NCBI GenBank assembly: GCA_022783515.1
Contig: JALEWR010000125.1
Coordinates: 1 to 36,680 of the forward strand
Reading direction: 5' to 3'
From: Prevotella sp.
Lineage (GTDB): Bacteria > Bacteroidota > Bacteroidia > Bacteroidales > Bacteroidaceae
Length of the DNA: 36,680 nucleotides
Shown: positions 8,706 through 27,536 of the stretch, in pieces
How positions within the stretch are numbered: the stretch's first letter is position 1
How the letters are laid out: each line of letters begins with the position of its first letter
Translations under genes and position numbers: made by a program
Notes under the pieces: generated by a model
Told to the model about the DNA's origin: nothing
What the model saw: only the letters and a program-made list of their open reading frames with translations
Database searches by the model: none

Positions 8706-8753
8706 ACTTTATAAGCCTTGTAGGGTATATGTGCCTTATAGGGTTTATAAAGT
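8706..8753. repeat. Inverted repeat between purL and the first chromate transporter gene
   Basis: ACTTTATAAgCCTTgTAGG (left) pairs with CCTTATAGGGtTTATAAAGT (right), with G-U pairs and mismatches; no U tract follows. Confidence 0.6.
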
Positions 8754-8782
8754 CAATCATTATTTTGAGAAAAGAACCCTTC

Positions 8783-9355
8783 ATGCAACACGACTCCCCG
8801 GAAATAAGCAACCTCTATGCCACACTTTTTAAAACTTTCTTTAAGATAGGAGCATTCACCTTGGGTGGTGGATACGCCATGATACCTATCATAGAAGCAG
8901 AGGTGGTAGATAAGAACCAATGGGTGACGAAGGATGATTTTGTGGATATCATTGCGATGTCGCAGAGTTGTCCCGGTGTTTTTGCTGCTAATATGAGCAT
9001 CTTTATTGGCTATAAGTTGAAGAAAATACCCGGAGCCTTATGTGCGTGTTTAGGAACGGTATTGCCATCGTTTGTCATCATACTCTCGATAGCCATGTTT
9101 TTCCGTCAGTTTCAAGACAATAAAGTGGTGGCAGCGATGTTCAACGGCATTCGTCCTGCTGTGGTTGCTCTGATTGCAGCACCCACTTTCAGCTTGGCAA
9201 AGAGTACCAAGATAACGTGGACAAATTGTTGGATTCCCATCGTGAGTGCCTTGTTGATATGGGCATTCCATGTTAATCCCATCTATATTCTTTTGGTGGC
9301 AGGCTTGTGTGGCTATCTGTATGGCACCTTTATTCGCCCCACCGAAGAGGCATAA
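8783..9355 (+). CDS. chrA: Chromate transporter, half-length CHR protein
   Basis: TFFKIGAFTLGGGYAMIPIIEAEVV and SQSCPGVFAANMSIFIGYK motifs; start placed at ATG 8783, since the track start at 8729 lies in the intergenic hairpin. Confidence 0.88.
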   Translation: MQHDSPEISNLYATLFKTFFKIGAFTLGGGYAMIPIIEAEVVDKNQWVTKDDFVDIIAMSQSCPGVFAANMSIFIGYKLKKIPGALCACLGTVLPSFVIILSIAMFFRQFQDNKVVAAMFNGIRPAVVALIAAPTFSLAKSTKITWTNCWIPIVSALLIWAFHVNPIYILLVAGLCGYLYGTFIRPTEEA

Positions 9356-9376
9356 TCATTGATAACGGAGCTGAAT

Positions 9377-9952
9377 ATGATATTTATAGAGTTGTTCTAT
9401 ACCTTTTTTATTATCGGTCTCTTTGGTTTTGGAGGAGGCTATGGCATGTTGTCGCTCATACAAACAGAGATTGTGCGGCATCATCAATGGCTCTCATCTG
9501 CCGAATTTACCAATATTGTTGCCATTTCACAAATGACACCCGGTCCTATCGGTATCAATGCGGCAACCTATTGTGGCTATACTGTGGTGGAGAATGCAGG
9601 TCATGGTATGGGCTTGTCCGTATTGGGTAGCGCTGTGGCAACCTTTGCTTTGGTGTTGCCTTCTTTTATCCTGATGGTATTGATAGCCAAAATGTTTATG
9701 CAGTATATGCAGACACAATTGGTGCAAGATGTCTTCTCCGGCATTCGTCCGGCTGTGGTAGGACTATTGGGAGCAGCCACTTTGCTCTTGCTGACACCGG
9801 AAAATTTCTCGAGTATAGAGGTGAATCCGTGGCGTTTTGGGATTAGTGTGGCTTTGTTTATTGCCACTTTTGTGGGAACGAAGTTTCTTCGTATCAACCC
9901 CATTCGCATGCTTTGCTATACCGCAGTGGCAGGCCTTTTGTTATTGTATTGA
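9377..9952 (+). CDS. chrA: Chromate transporter, second half-length CHR protein
   Basis: FFIIGLFGFGGGYGMLSLIQTEIV and SQMTPGPIGINAATYCGY motifs; the track start at 9359 is TTG, ATG 9377 is likelier. Confidence 0.88.
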   Translation: MIFIELFYTFFIIGLFGFGGGYGMLSLIQTEIVRHHQWLSSAEFTNIVAISQMTPGPIGINAATYCGYTVVENAGHGMGLSVLGSAVATFALVLPSFILMVLIAKMFMQYMQTQLVQDVFSGIRPAVVGLLGAATLLLLTPENFSSIEVNPWRFGISVALFIATFVGTKFLRINPIRMLCYTAVAGLLLLY

Positions 9953-20207: not shown

Positions 20208-21410
20208 ATGAAGATATTGGTATTGAATTGTGGAAGTTCGTCAATCAAGTACAAACTCTACAATATGGAAAATAAAGCAGTGTTGGCTGCCGGTGGAGTG
20301 GAACGCATAGGTTTGGACGAGGCTTTTATCAAAATCAGCTTGCCTAATGGGGAGAAAAAGAAGATTATGCATGACATGCCCGACCACAAGGAAGGGGTTA
20401 ACTTCGTGTTCCAATGCTTGCTCAATGATGAGTTTGGAGCCATTAAAGACTTGTCTGAAATTGACGCTGTGGGTCATCGTGTGGTGCAAGGTGGCGACAA
20501 ATTCTCTGACAGTGTTATTGTTGATGCAAGTGTAGAACAAGGAATAGAGGACCTTTGCGATTTGGCTCCTGTACACAACGCAGGCCACTTGCGTGGTATT
20601 CGTGCCGTTAACGCCTTGATGCCCGATACGCCTCAGGTAACGGTCTTCGACAATGCCTTCCACAGCACCATGCCCGCTCATGCTTATCTTTATGCAGTGC
20701 CTTACGAATTGTACGAAAAATATCACGTTCGCCGTTATGGCTTCCACGGCACCAGTCATCGTTATGTATCGCAGCGTGTATGCGACTATCTGGGCAAAGA
20801 CATCAAAACACAACGCATCATCACCTGTCATATAGGCAATGGAGCTAGCGTTTCTGCCATCAAGTTCGGTAAGTGTGTCGACACTTCTATGGGGCTCACT
20901 CCGCTGGAGGGTGTGATGATGGGTTCGCGTAGCGGTGATATCGACCCTTCTGCTGTTACTTTCCTTATGGATAAGTTGGGAAAGAAGCCACAAGAGATGG
21001 CAGATTTTTTGAACAAAGAGAGTGGTGTGTTGGGTATTACAGGCATTTCGAGCGATATGCGTGAAATAGAACAGGCTGCAGCCGAGGGCAACGAACGTGC
21101 TCAACTGGCGTTGGATATGTACAATTATCGCATCAAAAAGTATATCGGAGCCTACGCAGCTGCTATGGGTGGTGTAGATATCATCGTATGGACAGCAGGC
21201 GTTGGCGAAAACCAGACAGGCACTCGCCTGGATGCTTGCAGCGGCCTTGAGTTCTTGGGCATCAAAATCGACGCCGAGGCCAATAAGGTGCGTGGCGAAG
21301 AAGCCATTATTTCTACCCCTGATTCTAAGGTTACGGTATGTGTCATTCCTACTGATGAAGAGTTGGTTATTGCGAGCGATACCGAGCGTTTGGTAAAGGA
21401 GTTGAAGTAA
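20208..21410 (+). CDS. ackA: Acetate kinase
   Basis: MKILVLNCGSSSIKYKLYNM, GHRVVQGGDKF, FHSTMPAHAYLYAVP, GASVSAIKFGKCVDTSMGLTPLEGVMMGSRSGDIDP. Confidence 0.97.
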   Translation: MKILVLNCGSSSIKYKLYNMENKAVLAAGGVERIGLDEAFIKISLPNGEKKKIMHDMPDHKEGVNFVFQCLLNDEFGAIKDLSEIDAVGHRVVQGGDKFSDSVIVDASVEQGIEDLCDLAPVHNAGHLRGIRAVNALMPDTPQVTVFDNAFHSTMPAHAYLYAVPYELYEKYHVRRYGFHGTSHRYVSQRVCDYLGKDIKTQRIITCHIGNGASVSAIKFGKCVDTSMGLTPLEGVMMGSRSGDIDPSAVTFLMDKLGKKPQEMADFLNKESGVLGITGISSDMREIEQAAAEGNERAQLALDMYNYRIKKYIGAYAAAMGGVDIIVWTAGVGENQTGTRLDACSGLEFLGIKIDAEANKVRGEEAIISTPDSKVTVCVIPTDEELVIASDTERLVKELK

Positions 21411-21439
21411 GGGATAACATAATAGAGTATGAAAGGGGA

Positions 21440-21470
21440 GAGTATGTTGAGTCACATGCTCTCCTTTTGT
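21440..21470 (+). terminator. Intrinsic terminator downstream of ackA
   Basis: AAAGGGGAGAGTATGT...ACATGCTCTCCTTTTG hairpin followed by T-rich sequence. Confidence 0.8.
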
Positions 21471-21825: not shown

Positions 21826-21912
21826 GATAGTCATAAACGCACTTTTTGAGAAACGAAAAAGAGCGGTTGATAGTATTTCTTGTCTCGGAGAGAAGTAATT
21901 ATTTGTATATAT

Positions 21913-22350
21913 ATGATGGATATTCAAGCAGAAATAAAGCAGATAGGGAAGAAACATTCCACTATAGCACCCCAAACCATTCGGCTCAATACACAGGAGC
22001 AGGAATTGTCATTACGCGACCTCATCTTGCTCGTTGTGGAACAGCAAGTGGGGCAATTCAACGGCAAAACGAGGAATGAAGATGAGGACGGAACGGCGAA
22101 AACACCTGCCGCAGATTATCTTTCGTTGCTAAGCACCACAGGGAAAGTGGGATTTGGAGGAGTGTATAATCACACACAAGCCGACTTGAAACAAGCTCAA
22201 GACAATGCCTTGCAGGCTTTTGAAGATGGCTTGTATGCTGTGTTTTGCAACGACGAACCCTTGGAGAGTTTAAGCGACAGCGTATCGCTCGTACCCACTC
22301 CCCGCTTCACATTCGTACGACTTACATTTCTTACAGGAACTTTATGGTAA
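21913..22350 (+). CDS. Small protein partner of the DUF4132 protein
   Basis: About 145 aa; LSLRDLILLVVEQQVGQF and DNALQAFEDGLYAVFCNDEPLESL...RFTFVRLTFLTG; ATG at 21913; 90 bp upstream of the DUF4132 gene on the same strand. Confidence 0.75.
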   Translation: MMDIQAEIKQIGKKHSTIAPQTIRLNTQEQELSLRDLILLVVEQQVGQFNGKTRNEDEDGTAKTPAADYLSLLSTTGKVGFGGVYNHTQADLKQAQDNALQAFEDGLYAVFCNDEPLESLSDSVSLVPTPRFTFVRLTFLTGTLW

Positions 22351-22439
22351 GTGGCAACAACGAAAACGCATCAAATATTTCCTGCAATTTTCATACAACT
22401 CCTAAAAAACATTTCCATTAACTTAACAAAACAAAATAT

Positions 22440-25400
22440 ATGGACAATCCGGCATTAAACCAGTATGTTTCTTTTGAAAACGCTACTCATTCACTTTCAT
22501 CCCGTATTCTGCAACGTATTAAGCAGTCTGACCTCTCTTCTCAGGCAAAAAACTTGGGTAAAGCCTTGTTCTCGGAATATAAGACACCCTATGGATATGA
22601 ATCGGACATCATTGAAGTTGATAACGACAAGTTCAAAGCCATCGCCCCTCTTTTCATGGATATCGATTGGAACGATGCCAAGCATTTCGAACTTCTCACC
22701 TTTCTTTATGGCGAAACCTATGCTCCTTATATGGTGAAGGCGTGGGCAGAGTTTCCCCATCTGATGTATCAACGTGATTATGAACGCCGTTCGTTCAGGG
22801 CACCTCATTCAAAAAATATTATCCTTGCCAATCAATTAGTTTTTCTAATGTTTGCCGCCGGACATTGGTACAGCCTTGATTATGAAGATAAACGCCGTTT
22901 CTTGTTGCCACCTGCCGAAGCCATGCGATATGGCAATAACTTGCATAATAAGAGTTTTGTCTTGCCCGTTGCCAAGATGATAGACGACGGACAGACCGAC
23001 CTGCTGCAATTGGCAGAAAACATTATATACGGCAAAGACGAGGTTGGCAAGGTGTCAGACTTTCTCATTCGTGTGCTGTTGGCATCCCAAAAGCCGGAAT
23101 GTTGGCAGTTGGTGGGACAACTCCTCACCTCGGCACAACGCCAAGAAGGCTTGCGACAAACCATCATGGAGTCGGTAGACGAGTATTCCTGCAAGGAAGC
23201 ATTCCGCTATATCATCGACTTGGTGGTGAGAGAAAAGCTCACTCGTTTTTCTTCCGTGGTGCGGGCGATTGACGTATGGATGGGTATGGGCTTCGAGGCT
23301 GATAAGGAAAGCACCGTTCGCCGCATCTTCACGATGACAAGCGAATGGCTGGTAGACGAACAGGGAGCGTATAAAGTCCTGCAAGAAATGACCGATGAGA
23401 GCGACAATCTTGTGCTTTACACCGCCCTATGGGTTATCTCCATGACCGATGTGATGCTGGTTTTGGATTACATAGAGGCGATGCTGAAAATGAAAAGCAA
23501 GCAAAAGCAATGCTTGGCATTATACTTTGCGAGAGAAACAAAGATGACTGTTGTCATTGATACTGCTTGTAGAATAGCCCTTGAGCAGCCCTCACTCGAA
23601 GTACTTTCATTCGTTATTGGGATGTTGCGAAGCACTCTTGAATACGAAAAACCTGCAGACAGAGGAAATGAACAGCTGTTTGATAAGATGTTGAACATTG
23701 CCAATGGCATCGAAGTGAAGCAAAAAGATTTTGAGGGATTGGTGTTTGGTTGGACCAACAGTTGCTTTAAAAAAGAAAATTTGCTGCATGTGACCTACCT
23801 GGTGGCTGGTGATAACGAGACAAACATCACAAAAATACTCGACCGATTCGACGAACTTTCTTCTGATTTGCGTTGGCAAATCGTGAGAAACTTATACGGC
23901 GATTGGTCAGCATACGCTTACAACGACAGTGCCATGCGTCTTGAGACCGACGGAATGCCTCCAATCAAGCCTTTGCAGCGTTCGTTTGCCTTCCGTCTTA
24001 TCAACGATAGGGGTGTTTCGCAGCAAGCCACGGGCTTCAAGGTGCTGCAAAACTGCACACTCACCGATGAAGAGGTCTTCGGTATGGAGTCGCTCTATAC
24101 GCGTAAGGGGCAGGATTTCCGCCGTGAATTGAGCAAATTGATGTTGCAGCAAGACGACAAACGTCTGAAGACAGTTATTGAACATCTGTTGGAATCGGGC
24201 AATGTTGATCAGCGGGCGGGCGGACTCGACTTGCTGGCTACCTTGCATAACGCCAAACGAATGACCGGTTTCATGGAGCAAAAGGTAGCGGAATACAGGG
24301 CAAGACCCAAGCTGTCGAAAAATGAAACGGTGTTGCTCGACCGCATTTCCACTGTCGAAGGTACGACAGCCGAGGTGCTTTCTGCCGAAAACGGATATGG
24401 TGTGTACAACCCCAAGAACACGACACCGTGGTCGCTCCCAACGATTGACGAAGCTGGAATATATGCCCAACGCACCACTTCCGGCAAGAACACGGGATTG
24501 ATAGGTAAGATGAAAACGGCTTTGGGCATTCATTCGCCCAATTATGGATTGTCCAAATCGATAGAAGACATCAAGAAAGAAATCGACAGATTAGTTATAC
24601 TCTACAACGAAAACAAAAACTATGAATATGAATGTGAGGAGTATGACGGACGCAAAACAATGGTTTTGCTGGGCAACACCTTCGGTTATAAGGTAAGACA
24701 GCATAAACAGCTCACACCCCAAGAACGTTTTGAGGCCTTCCCCTTGTACGAAGTGTGGGAAGAATGGTATCAGTCGACAGGGTTGGATGCCTGCGACCTC
24801 TTCATTCTGACGCTCTTAGATGAAATGGACCATAATACTTTTAAGAAATATCTTCAGCAATACGTCCTCCCCAACGATGAGTTGTATCCCAAGATGGGCA
24901 GTTATCGCTGGAATAATCCGATAAGAATCATTATGAAGGCTTTGGCAGATTATCATGTATTTGAAGACAAGACCAACTTCCTCATTGATTTGTCGTGCGA
25001 CATTTATCGGAATCTGCCTCAAGACATCATCTACTATAAGGATAATGAAAGATATTATTATAATGGTGTGCAACGCACCTCCGGTTGGCAGGATAATGTG
25101 TTAATGACAACTTTTATAAAGAGAATAGATGAGGAAAAGATAACGGAGGAGCAGGCTTGGAAACTCTGGAACATCTACCGGTTCATTCAGTTTACCGGCC
25201 ATGAGGATGTGGCAAAACACCATTTTCCGCCACTTGAGATTGCCGCCATATGCTATCAGGCAGGACGCATCACCCAAGACGAAATGACAGAGGTGTTGTT
25301 GGTGGTTGACAATCTGAGAGATGCGACCAACAGAAAACGATATGAGCATTATTATCGCAATTGGGTTTTCGAGCGTTTTTCTTTCATCCGCGACTTTATC

Positions 25401-27536
25401 CACACTTTGCAGGAGAGCTTCTTGCCCATAGAAATGCAACGGGGCGACCTCAACACCCCCGTAACCCGATTTGTTTCAGCTTTCCAGAGCATCTATGGTG
25501 CCAAGTATGTGGTGCAAATGCTGGTGGCATTGGGCAAAAAATCGTTCTACAAAGGTTACTTTTGGTATGGTGCGAATGAAGAGATGAGCAAACAGAAACT
25601 GTTTTCACATCTTATCAAAAATTCGTATCCGGCGGAAGACGATACGCAAGAAGTGTTTGACAATTTAGTGAAACAACATAAGAAAGAGCTTACCGAGCAA
25701 CGCCTCATCGAGCTGGCTGTCTATGCACCTCAATGGCAATCGTTTGTGAGTGCATATTTAGGATGGAAAGGTTTGGACAGTGGCATTTGGTGGATGCATG
25801 CCCATACGAAGACCGCGGAATACCAGGCACGCTCGGCTGAGTTTGAGAGTGAGGTGGCACGTTATTCAAGTCTTGACCTCGAAGACTTCAAAGTGGGTGC
25901 GGTGGATAAAGTGTGGTTCGACGAGGCTTTCAAAACATTAGGAGCGAAAAAGTGGGAAATGCTATACGATGCTGCCAAATACATAGCCGAAGGCAATGGA
26001 CACCGACGGGCAAAAATCTACTCGGACACACTCACCGGCGTTTATTCGCTTAAAGAAGTCTTGGAAAAGGTGAGAGAAAAACGCGACCAAGAGTTTTTGC
26101 GGGTATATGGATTGGTGCCACTCAATAAGAAAAATCCGAAAAAAGATCTCTTGGAACGCTACGAAGAATTGGTAAGGTTTAGAAAAGAGAGCCGCCAGTT
26201 CGGACAGATGCGACAGGCAAGCGAAGGCACGGCTTGCGATGTGGCAATGGACAATCTGGCACGCAACGCCGGCTATGCCGACCCGCAACGCCTTACATGG
26301 GCAATGGAGACCGAACAGGTGAAAGCCATCTTTGCACAGGCAACCCAGGTGGAGATTGGCGAGGTGAGCCTCAAGCTCTATGTGGAAGAAAGCGGAAAGG
26401 CGGAAATAAGTATAGAAAAAGGTGGCAAAACGCTGAAAGCCGTGCCTGCCAACCTGAAGAAGAATGAGCATGTGTTGGAATTGACAGCCCACAGAAAGGT
26501 GCTTCGAGAGCAGCTGTCGCGGTCGCGTAAGGGATTGGAGGCTGCCATGATGCGTGGTGACCGATTTACTTTCGAGGAATTGAAGACGCTTTTCGAACAT
26601 CCCGTTATTTCTAAGTTGCTGCAAAAATTGGTGTTTATCAGCGATACCGGAGCCAATGGTTTTTATTCAGAAAACGGGTTGCAAGATGCCAATGGGCAAC
26701 ACACGCCGCTCACTTCTGACGACAACATTCGCATAGCCCACTGCTACGATCTGCACCAAGCAGGTGTATGGGCGGATTATCAACGTTTGAGTTTCGATCA
26801 AGAGTTGGTACAACCTTTCAAACAAATATTCCGTGAGTTGTACGTTCCCACTGCCGACGAGTTGCAAGAAGCTGCTGTTTCGCGTCGCTACGCAGGGCAT
26901 CAGGTGCAACCCAAGCAAACGCTCGCCCTGCTGAAGGGCAGAGGCTGGAAGGTGGATTACGAGGAAGGCTTGCAGAAAGTGTATCACAAGCAAGGTTTTC
27001 AGGTGAAACTCTATGCCATGGCAGATTGGTTTTCGCCCTCGGATGTGGAGGCTCCCACGCTTGAAACCATCGAGTTTCACAGCTTGAAAGACTTTACCAA
27101 TATTCCCTTTACCGATATCGACCCACTCATCTTCTCGGAAGTGATGCGGGATATTGACCTCGTGGTGAGCGTGGCATACGTTGGCGGTGTAGATCCGGAG
27201 GCGAGCCAGTCGACCGTGGAGATGCGGGCTGCCATTCTCACCCAAACCTTACGTCTGTTCAAACTTGCCAATGTGGAAATCAGCAAGCATCATGCCCATA
27301 TCAAAGGCACGATGGGCGAATACTCGGTGCATCTGGGCAGTGGCGTGGTTCATCAGGTGGCACAGGGTCATCTGTCCATCATCCCGGTACATTCCCAACA
27401 TCGCGGCCGCCTCTTCCTTCCCTTTGTCGACGACGATCCCAAGACGGCAGAAATCATGTCGAAGGTGCTGTTGCTGGCAAAAGACAAGGACATCAAAGAC
27501 CCAACGGTGTTACAACAGATACGCCCCACATCGTAA
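22440..27536 (+). CDS. DUF4132 domain-containing giant protein (MolR/YehI-like)
   Basis: 1698 aa; C-terminal FTDIDPLIFSEVMRDIDLVVSVAYVGGVDPEASQSTVEMRAAIL and HIKGTMGEYSVHLGSGVVHQ match the DUF4132 C-terminal pattern; the N-terminal part looks helical-repeat-like. Confidence 0.87.
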   Translation: MDNPALNQYVSFENATHSLSSRILQRIKQSDLSSQAKNLGKALFSEYKTPYGYESDIIEVDNDKFKAIAPLFMDIDWNDAKHFELLTFLYGETYAPYMVKAWAEFPHLMYQRDYERRSFRAPHSKNIILANQLVFLMFAAGHWYSLDYEDKRRFLLPPAEAMRYGNNLHNKSFVLPVAKMIDDGQTDLLQLAENIIYGKDEVGKVSDFLIRVLLASQKPECWQLVGQLLTSAQRQEGLRQTIMESVDEYSCKEAFRYIIDLVVREKLTRFSSVVRAIDVWMGMGFEADKESTVRRIFTMTSEWLVDEQGAYKVLQEMTDESDNLVLYTALWVISMTDVMLVLDYIEAMLKMKSKQKQCLALYFARETKMTVVIDTACRIALEQPSLEVLSFVIGMLRSTLEYEKPADRGNEQLFDKMLNIANGIEVKQKDFEGLVFGWTNSCFKKENLLHVTYLVAGDNETNITKILDRFDELSSDLRWQIVRNLYGDWSAYAYNDSAMRLETDGMPPIKPLQRSFAFRLINDRGVSQQATGFKVLQNCTLTDEEVFGMESLYTRKGQDFRRELSKLMLQQDDKRLKTVIEHLLESGNVDQRAGGLDLLATLHNAKRMTGFMEQKVAEYRARPKLSKNETVLLDRISTVEGTTAEVLSAENGYGVYNPKNTTPWSLPTIDEAGIYAQRTTSGKNTGLIGKMKTALGIHSPNYGLSKSIEDIKKEIDRLVILYNENKNYEYECEEYDGRKTMVLLGNTFGYKVRQHKQLTPQERFEAFPLYEVWEEWYQSTGLDACDLFILTLLDEMDHNTFKKYLQQYVLPNDELYPKMGSYRWNNPIRIIMKALADYHVFEDKTNFLIDLSCDIYRNLPQDIIYYKDNERYYYNGVQRTSGWQDNVLMTTFIKRIDEEKITEEQAWKLWNIYRFIQFTGHEDVAKHHFPPLEIAAICYQAGRITQDEMTEVLLVVDNLRDATNRKRYEHYYRNWVFERFSFIRDFIHTLQESFLPIEMQRGDLNTPVTRFVSAFQSIYGAKYVVQMLVALGKKSFYKGYFWYGANEEMSKQKLFSHLIKNSYPAEDDTQEVFDNLVKQHKKELTEQRLIELAVYAPQWQSFVSAYLGWKGLDSGIWWMHAHTKTAEYQARSAEFESEVARYSSLDLEDFKVGAVDKVWFDEAFKTLGAKKWEMLYDAAKYIAEGNGHRRAKIYSDTLTGVYSLKEVLEKVREKRDQEFLRVYGLVPLNKKNPKKDLLERYEELVRFRKESRQFGQMRQASEGTACDVAMDNLARNAGYADPQRLTWAMETEQVKAIFAQATQVEIGEVSLKLYVEESGKAEISIEKGGKTLKAVPANLKKNEHVLELTAHRKVLREQLSRSRKGLEAAMMRGDRFTFEELKTLFEHPVISKLLQKLVFISDTGANGFYSENGLQDANGQHTPLTSDDNIRIAHCYDLHQAGVWADYQRLSFDQELVQPFKQIFRELYVPTADELQEAAVSRRYAGHQVQPKQTLALLKGRGWKVDYEEGLQKVYHKQGFQVKLYAMADWFSPSDVEAPTLETIEFHSLKDFTNIPFTDIDPLIFSEVMRDIDLVVSVAYVGGVDPEASQSTVEMRAAILTQTLRLFKLANVEISKHHAHIKGTMGEYSVHLGSGVVHQVAQGHLSIIPVHSQHRGRLFLPFVDDDPKTAEIMSKVLLLAKDKDIKDPTVLQQIRPTS

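Follow-up and report, generated by a model that had tools for sequence, protein, structure and literature searches.

A predicted ubiquitin-like protein is the conserved neighbour of giant DUF4132 proteins in 11 bacterial phyla

We know of no established function for DUF4132 proteins, the Escherichia coli proteins MolR and YehI included. At the E. coli locus (yehF-yehH(molR)-yehI-yehK-yehL-yehM-yehP-yehQ, L152 8475-22945), YehI is found among a WGR gene (yehF), a molR pseudogene (yehH), a MoxR AAA gene (yehL), a VWA gene (yehP) and a SWIM gene (yehQ), and molR is listed as LexA-regulated (PMC11039860). Small beta-grasp proteins are described in two other settings: MoaD (human MOCS2A) carries a C-terminal tail and has a dedicated larger partner, MoaE, and the conserved bacterial operons of Iyer et al. 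2006 are centred on E1, E2 or JAB genes, with no MolR, YehI, HEAT or giant-protein context found by a text search of that paper (PMC1779556). Here we describe a two-gene unit in a 36,680-nucleotide stretch of Prevotella sp. DNA (GenBank assembly GCA_022783515.1, contig JALEWR010000125.1, positions 1 to 36,680; hereafter the window), in which a gene for a small, predicted ubiquitin-like protein precedes the gene for a very large DUF4132 protein, the giant. We find that the two genes are linked across phyla, and propose, with a probability of roughly 60%, that they encode a stress-induced, obligate two-subunit machine in which the ubiquitin-like tail would be docked on the giant. The features of the pair are as follows (aa, amino acids).

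21916..22350, + strand: small protein, predicted ubiquitin-like (beta-grasp) partner, 144 aa (open reading frame (ORF), AlphaFold2, Foldseek, homologues beside giants)
22336..22347, + strand: C-terminal tail Gly-Thr-Leu-Trp of the small protein, where other phyla carry a terminal Gly-Gly (alignments, tail census)
22440..27536, + strand: giant, 1698 aa, DUF5724 + DUF4132 + DUF7737 (ORF, Pfam)
22665..26306, + strand: DUF5724 region of the giant (Pfam, aa 76-1289), its C-terminal part a predicted alpha-helical solenoid
26424..26948, + strand: DUF4132 domain of the giant (Pfam, aa 1329-1503), holding an invariant QPFKQ.FRE.Y segment
27177..27179, + strand: giant codon 1580, Tyr here and His in aligned giants
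27216..27521, + strand: DUF7737 domain of the giant (Pfam, aa 1593-1694)

ORF analysis places the small gene first and the giant gene second, with a spacer of 89 base pairs (bp) between them. The small-gene frame is open over 21880-22350 with adjoining ATGs at 21913 and 21916, of which homologues favour the second; the first would add one Met (145 aa). A first-pass annotation made from the letters alone had both ORFs and their positions right, to within this one residue and a gap of 90 bp, and it had recognised the giant by DUF4132 alone, to which the Pfam scan adds two further families (DUF5724, E 2e-293; DUF4132, E 1.5e-48; DUF7737, E 5.7e-37). The giant passes the curated PF13569 cut-off with 165.6 bits against 27. 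That the small ORF did not arise by chance is seen from three facts: homologues lie beside giants in 11 phyla, the ratio of nonsynonymous to synonymous rates between two same-genus copies is low (dN/dS ~0.13; 0.051/0.381), and mass spectrometry has found the orthologous protein in Deinococcus (PMC9650054).

The linkage of the two genes was assessed in 85,462 species genomes scanned with an alignment of the giant, from which 80 giants were taken, the best of 554; this selection does not sample DUF4132 proteins at random. By record title, the 80 giants belong to Cyanobacteria, Chloroflexota, Verrucomicrobiota, Acidobacteriota, Planctomycetota, Actinomycetota, Armatimonadota, Deinococcota, Pseudomonadota, Bacillota and Bacteroidota. 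A profile search in all frames finds the small gene on the giant's strand within ~600 bases, 5' or 3', in 72 of the 80, and the eight giants that lack it are truncated or at a contig edge (L094, L097, L107, L117, L118, L122, L123, L140), so that every testable giant (72/72) has its small gene. The gaps are mostly short, from a 4-base stop/start overlap (L074, L087, L136) to ~190 bases, and are larger in L062 and L081; the gene order is flipped, with linkage kept, in L103, L108, L114, L116 and L037, and in genome G318 the small gene lies 3' of the giant with one ORF between. On plasmid records the pair is seen in Deinococcus, and in Chondrinema, Novosphingobium and Nonomuraea the small gene accompanies short DUF4132 proteins. 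No fusion of two intact proteins was seen at the 80 giant loci, where all small-gene frames are shorter than 245 aa.

No third gene travels with the pair. Clustering of flanking genes reveals no other gene that is widely recurrent across phyla, and among 110 immediate neighbours at 31 loci no Pfam family occurs in more than four of the proteins (25 commonest listed; a single AAA or VWA gene is possible). An AAA or VWA partner was considered and set aside, as none recurs in either the clustering or the neighbour families. The first-pass annotation had seen no such gene near the pair in the window, which is the case. The E. coli yeh locus differs on this point, and YehI itself shares the DUF4132 domain with the giant but matches neither DUF5724 nor DUF7737, and a ubiquitin-like gene was not found near it; it is a separate DUF4132 context.

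Within Bacteroidota the same association is seen at closer range. Among 121 same-family genomes, the five with a DUF5724 match are exactly the five with the small gene, beside either a giant or its remnant, and each of the seven strong giants in a set of 397 Bacteroidota genomes adjoins a small gene. A DUF4132 search of the same 397 genomes yields 11 intact genes in 10 genomes, including short proteins of ~855-890 aa without DUF5724, and the small gene is beside all 11; in the distant G343 it is detected only with a broader profile. In G192 (two copies) and G455 the small gene adjoins DUF4132 proteins of 855-862 aa that have DUF7737 and lack DUF5724. Two genomes carry the pair in decay: in G042 (L045 10700-12168), one of the five above, an internal deletion has left the beginning of the small gene running in frame into what remains of the giant, so that the former adjacency of the two is visible, and in G424 (L033 9489-10493) the decayed remains of a DUF7737 sequence adjoin a small gene that is still intact. 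The distribution is patchy, with the pair in about 2-4% of genomes. Weak DUF5724 matches in G368, G271, G420, G499 and G341 were rejected as apparent cross-matches; those of G368 and G420, when scanned, are HEAT-repeat/cytochrome proteins without DUF4132, and the DUF5724 family model is known from our scans to cross-match unrelated HEAT-repeat proteins.

The two genes also share their history. Over 70 pairs, tree distances of the small protein and of the giant show a correlation of 0.915, part of which comes from relatedness alone, while the best of 1000 label permutations reaches 0.158. With Flavobacteriales copies the window giant shares 46% identity, against 28% with the copy from its own genus, and the tree joins it to the Flavobacteriales copies with support 1.0; the small protein mirrors this, being closer to Flavobacteriales/Chitinophagales copies than to the same-genus copy. 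Since both genes show this resemblance, the pair appears to have been transferred horizontally as a unit. Taken with the linkage at 72 of 72 testable giants and the lack of a third recurring gene, these data leave us virtually certain that the pair is an obligate conserved unit, as the first-pass annotation had surmised when it likened the small protein to a neighbour of DUF4132 genes in other phyla, including Actinobacterial relatives that prove to be real (L050, L069, L113). One might instead view this as an operon of convenience, in which the small protein would regulate stress with targets away from the giant, for example through thioredoxin as proposed in PMC9650054, and linkage would reflect co-regulation. 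In favour of this view, that paper reports that the Deinococcus small protein pulls down Trx1 and that its deletion raises H2O2 resistance. The two genes, however, stay together where their order is reversed, where DUF5724 has been lost, after horizontal transfer and throughout 11 phyla, whereas neither thioredoxin nor any other neighbour is found repeatedly from phylum to phylum; and the degenerating loci of G042 and G424 retain giant remnants beside the small gene. We regard co-regulation alone as a poor explanation.

What kind of protein is the small subunit? An AlphaFold2 model built with 60 homologues has a mean predicted local distance difference test score (pLDDT) of 84.9 and places its elements in beta-grasp order: strands 2-10 and 21-25, helices 34-58 and 92-104, and strands 108-112, 115-117, 123-125 and 131-136. 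The predicted topology is that of a beta-grasp, taken here as a beta hairpin, a helix and then strands, with the C-terminal strand next to the first. The top Foldseek match in the PDB is human MOCS2A (MoaD; probability 0.98, E 0.016), and the remaining matches are mostly beta-grasp proteins, Urm1, ubiquitin, SUMO and ISG15 among them. As no single match is significant, the fold assignment rests on the agreement of the hit list, the topology and the tail, and on these grounds the small protein is very probably a beta-grasp (MoaD/Urm1/ubiquitin-like) fold. The D. radiodurans protein has independently been reported (PMC9650054) to resemble MoaD-family structures, 5MPO and SAMP1 among them. Sequence searches tell us less: neither Pfam nor NCBIfam has a match for the window protein, no Pfam family is consistently matched by 60 members, PHROGs are negative or without a consistent match, PADLOC-DB gives a single insignificant match (E 0.042), and a PDB sequence search finds no beta-grasp chain and one insignificant match to an MbtH-like protein. 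There is no sequence-level kinship to a known ubiquitin, MoaD or ThiS family in these searches. Compared with MoaD, the window protein has ~60 more aa and a helical insertion, and the giant has no MoaE domain.

The C-terminal tails form a series. Among 72 small proteins, 26 end in Gly-Gly, nine in Gly-Ala, one in Gly-Met, 28 in G-x-x-[W/V], five in Gly-Gly followed by one or two hydrophobic residues, and three otherwise. All 26 Gly-Gly tails come from outside Bacteroidota. Most small proteins of non-Bacteroidota origin terminate in Gly-Gly or Gly-Ala, and the last strand and tail resemble ubiquitin (RLVPLVGG, RLTALAGG). The window protein has no exposed C-terminal Gly-Gly and ends in G-T-L-W, within a clade whose tail is G-x-[LIYF]-W. 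The giant tree divides the Gly-Gly/Gly-Ala tails from the hydrophobic ones, the latter group made up of Bacteroidota, Bacillota and Parabeggiatoa; the Cyanobacterium L136 (tail GGW) is placed in the former. Small partners of short DUF4132 proteins retain Gly-Gly, in Bacteroidota too.

A diglycine that follows a ubiquitin-like last strand raises the prospect of a new conjugation or sulphur-carrier system, in which a borrowed E1 (MoeB/ThiF) would activate the tail for protein attachment or thiocarboxylation and the giant would be ligase or acceptor; the Foldseek neighbourhood of MoaD, Urm1, ubiquitin and SUMO points the same way. The G-x-x-[W/V] and Gly-Ala tails, and those with extra hydrophobic residues, speak against it, and, unlike the operons of Iyer et al., the pair has no E1, E2 or JAB gene that recurs beside it. 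A ThiF-fold protein is present in 13 of 14 genomes examined; the window genome and the same-genus genomes have one each and no MoaE, and in G318, a complete genome, the pair is intact (tail G-A-Y-W) and neither a ThiF-fold protein nor a MoaE match is found. Because of G318, E1-dependent conjugation or sulphur carriage cannot be the general function, and we consider such a system unlikely; E1-type chemistry confined to the Gly-Gly clade is doubtful, if a little less so. A role as a molybdenum-cofactor accessory is suggested by the MolR name and the MoaD-like Foldseek result, and a molybdopterin role has been put forward for DUF4132 on the basis of annotation (PMC8533742). With search controls positive in 11 of 14 genomes, however, no MoaE match is found in the window genome (a draft, 87% complete) or in six more genomes that have the pair or a remnant of it, the same-genus G056 and G092 and also G112, G042, G318 and G455; no moa genes recur beside the pair; and moeA and moeB are unchanged alongside the operon in PMC8533742. 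We hold this role to be very improbable.

Direct orthologues of both proteins are found in Deinococcus radiodurans. The pair at locus L049 has the same gene order as the window and the same make-up, a small protein and a DUF5724-DUF4132-DUF7737 giant, with a Gly-Gly tail versus G-T-L-W in the window. It is identified as DR_A0165 (SEP068184)/DR_A0166 because the published 20-base operator of DRA0165 is found upstream: the DdrO operator (radiation/desiccation response motif, RDRM) of PMC8533742 is present without mismatch at L049 5032-5051, 82 bp 5' of the small-gene start codon. Two papers treat the operon from its two ends, PMC8533742 covering its regulation and the induction of the giant, and PMC9650054 the small protein. 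The first places DRA0165/DRA0166 under DdrO by chromatin immunoprecipitation sequencing, RNA sequencing and motif, and shows that DRA0166 protein is induced by mitomycin C in an IrrE-dependent manner (PMC8533742). In the second, DR_A0165 protein is increased by gamma rays and H2O2, its deletion gives higher H2O2 resistance with DR_A0166 expression unchanged and little effect on growth, and co-immunoprecipitation with mass spectrometry names Trx1, Rsr and others as interactors (PMC9650054). The same paper terms DR_A0165 Deinococcus-only and operator-free, which is contradicted by the homologues in 11 phyla and the exact operator in L049.

These reports support the stress role that the first-pass annotation had entertained for the pair. 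Of its two other suggestions, protein quality control finds neither support nor contradiction here, and a role in conflict has nothing in its favour: no PADLOC match was found beyond the insignificant one above, and no copy in viral contigs. The two-gene layout, occasional translational coupling, patchy occurrence and transfer as a unit would all suit a toxin-antitoxin or anti-phage pair with the giant as effector and the small protein as inhibitor or sensor, but the D. radiodurans small gene can be deleted at little cost (PMC9650054) and defence genes do not recur nearby, and we think this an improbable function. Outside Deinococcus, SOS-box patterns 5' of the small gene number one of Cyanobacterial type and one of Gram-positive type, which is about chance by estimate, so that DNA-damage control is not generalisable beyond Deinococcus.

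The giant itself is modelled by AlphaFold2 over aa 1000-1698 with a pLDDT of 87.4, mostly helical to ~aa 1300 and then forming a mixed domain, and across aligned giants the DUF4132/DUF7737 module is extremely conserved, with H1434, Q1458, R1465, E1466, R1570, D1571, D1585 and E1587 among the invariant residues. At residue 1580, in the motif VSVAH.GGVDPE, the window giant has Tyr versus His in 99% of 79 aligned giants; to judge from this alignment, the window copy may be altered in activity.

From these features a stress-induced two-subunit machine can be drawn as follows. The operon would encode an obligate pair, in which the small subunit would be a ubiquitin-like beta-grasp with a projecting C-terminal tail and the giant an alpha-solenoid scaffold terminating in the highly conserved DUF4132-DUF7737 module. 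The beta-grasp body would sit on the giant in a stable complex, and the tail, whether Gly-Gly, Gly-Ala or G-x-[LIYF]-W, would enter a conserved DUF4132/DUF7737 pocket, much as the MoaD tail enters MoaE. The complex would act in the stress response, in Deinococcus through DdrO-mediated DNA-damage induction, and modulate oxidative resistance; a biochemical output of the pair is inferred. Obligate linkage and co-inheritance make a physical complex of small protein and giant likely, and for docking of the tail, argued from DUF4132/DUF7737 conservation and the MoaD-MoaE analogy, we put the chances at even.

Several observations weigh against this model. Evidence for the physical complex is indirect, and DR_A0166 is not among the DR_A0165 interactors named in the accessible part of PMC9650054. 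No Foldseek match to the small protein reaches E 0.001, the best being 0.016; the C-terminal 699 residues of the giant have no convincing solved-fold relative, and the pocket is a guess from conservation with no matching solved fold behind it. Finally, a few DUF4132 genes have no adjoining small gene.

L055 4789-7587: DUF4132 gene without small neighbour, Acetobacter plasmid
L059 6102-9407: DUF4132 gene without small neighbour, second copy in Nonomuraea
L053 5392-7806: DUF4132 gene without small neighbour, Chondrinema plasmid

At least two of these three bear DUF7737. Nonomuraea and Chondrinema carry the small gene at another locus, and the ubiquitin-like partner tends to go with DUF7737-bearing proteins, a tendency from which L055 and L059 depart.

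Around the window pair the genes are those of housekeeping, as the first-pass annotation had it: pta and ackA on the 5' side and, on the 3' side, an LpxH-like phosphoesterase, an iron-sulphur assembly-type protein and, on the opposite strand, RadC. The guanine-plus-cytosine content of the pair is unremarkable in the window. A 404-aa open frame antisense to ackA (20241-21455, - strand) most probably exists only as a side effect of coding on the other strand, and two neighbouring single-domain chromate-transporter genes (8729-9952; 208 and 197 aa) show the usual split arrangement.

With a tightly linked ubiquitin-like partner known from at least 11 phyla, DUF4132 function can be approached concretely, with targets for co-expression, crystallisation and mutagenesis. 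The range of tails, from Gly-Gly to G-x-[LIYF]-W, amounts to an experiment by nature on the need for diglycine chemistry. The claim of a Deinococcus-specific small protein is corrected, and a radiation-response operon of D. radiodurans, approached by two groups whose work had not been joined, is now linked to a general bacterial system. Tentatively, and at somewhat short of even odds, that system may be a widespread, hitherto unnamed machine for DNA damage or oxidative stress. It would combine a ubiquitin-like subunit of its own with a solenoid-type DUF4132 giant; Gly-Gly would be the chemical or docking end, and a hydrophobic anchor would serve instead in Bacteroidota and Bacillota. If true, bacteria would here be using the ubiquitin fold in a new way, one that has no E1, E2 or protease dedicated to it. 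That DUF4132 proteins have a ubiquitin-like partner across so many phyla would surprise specialists, and the question it poses is directly testable in D. radiodurans.

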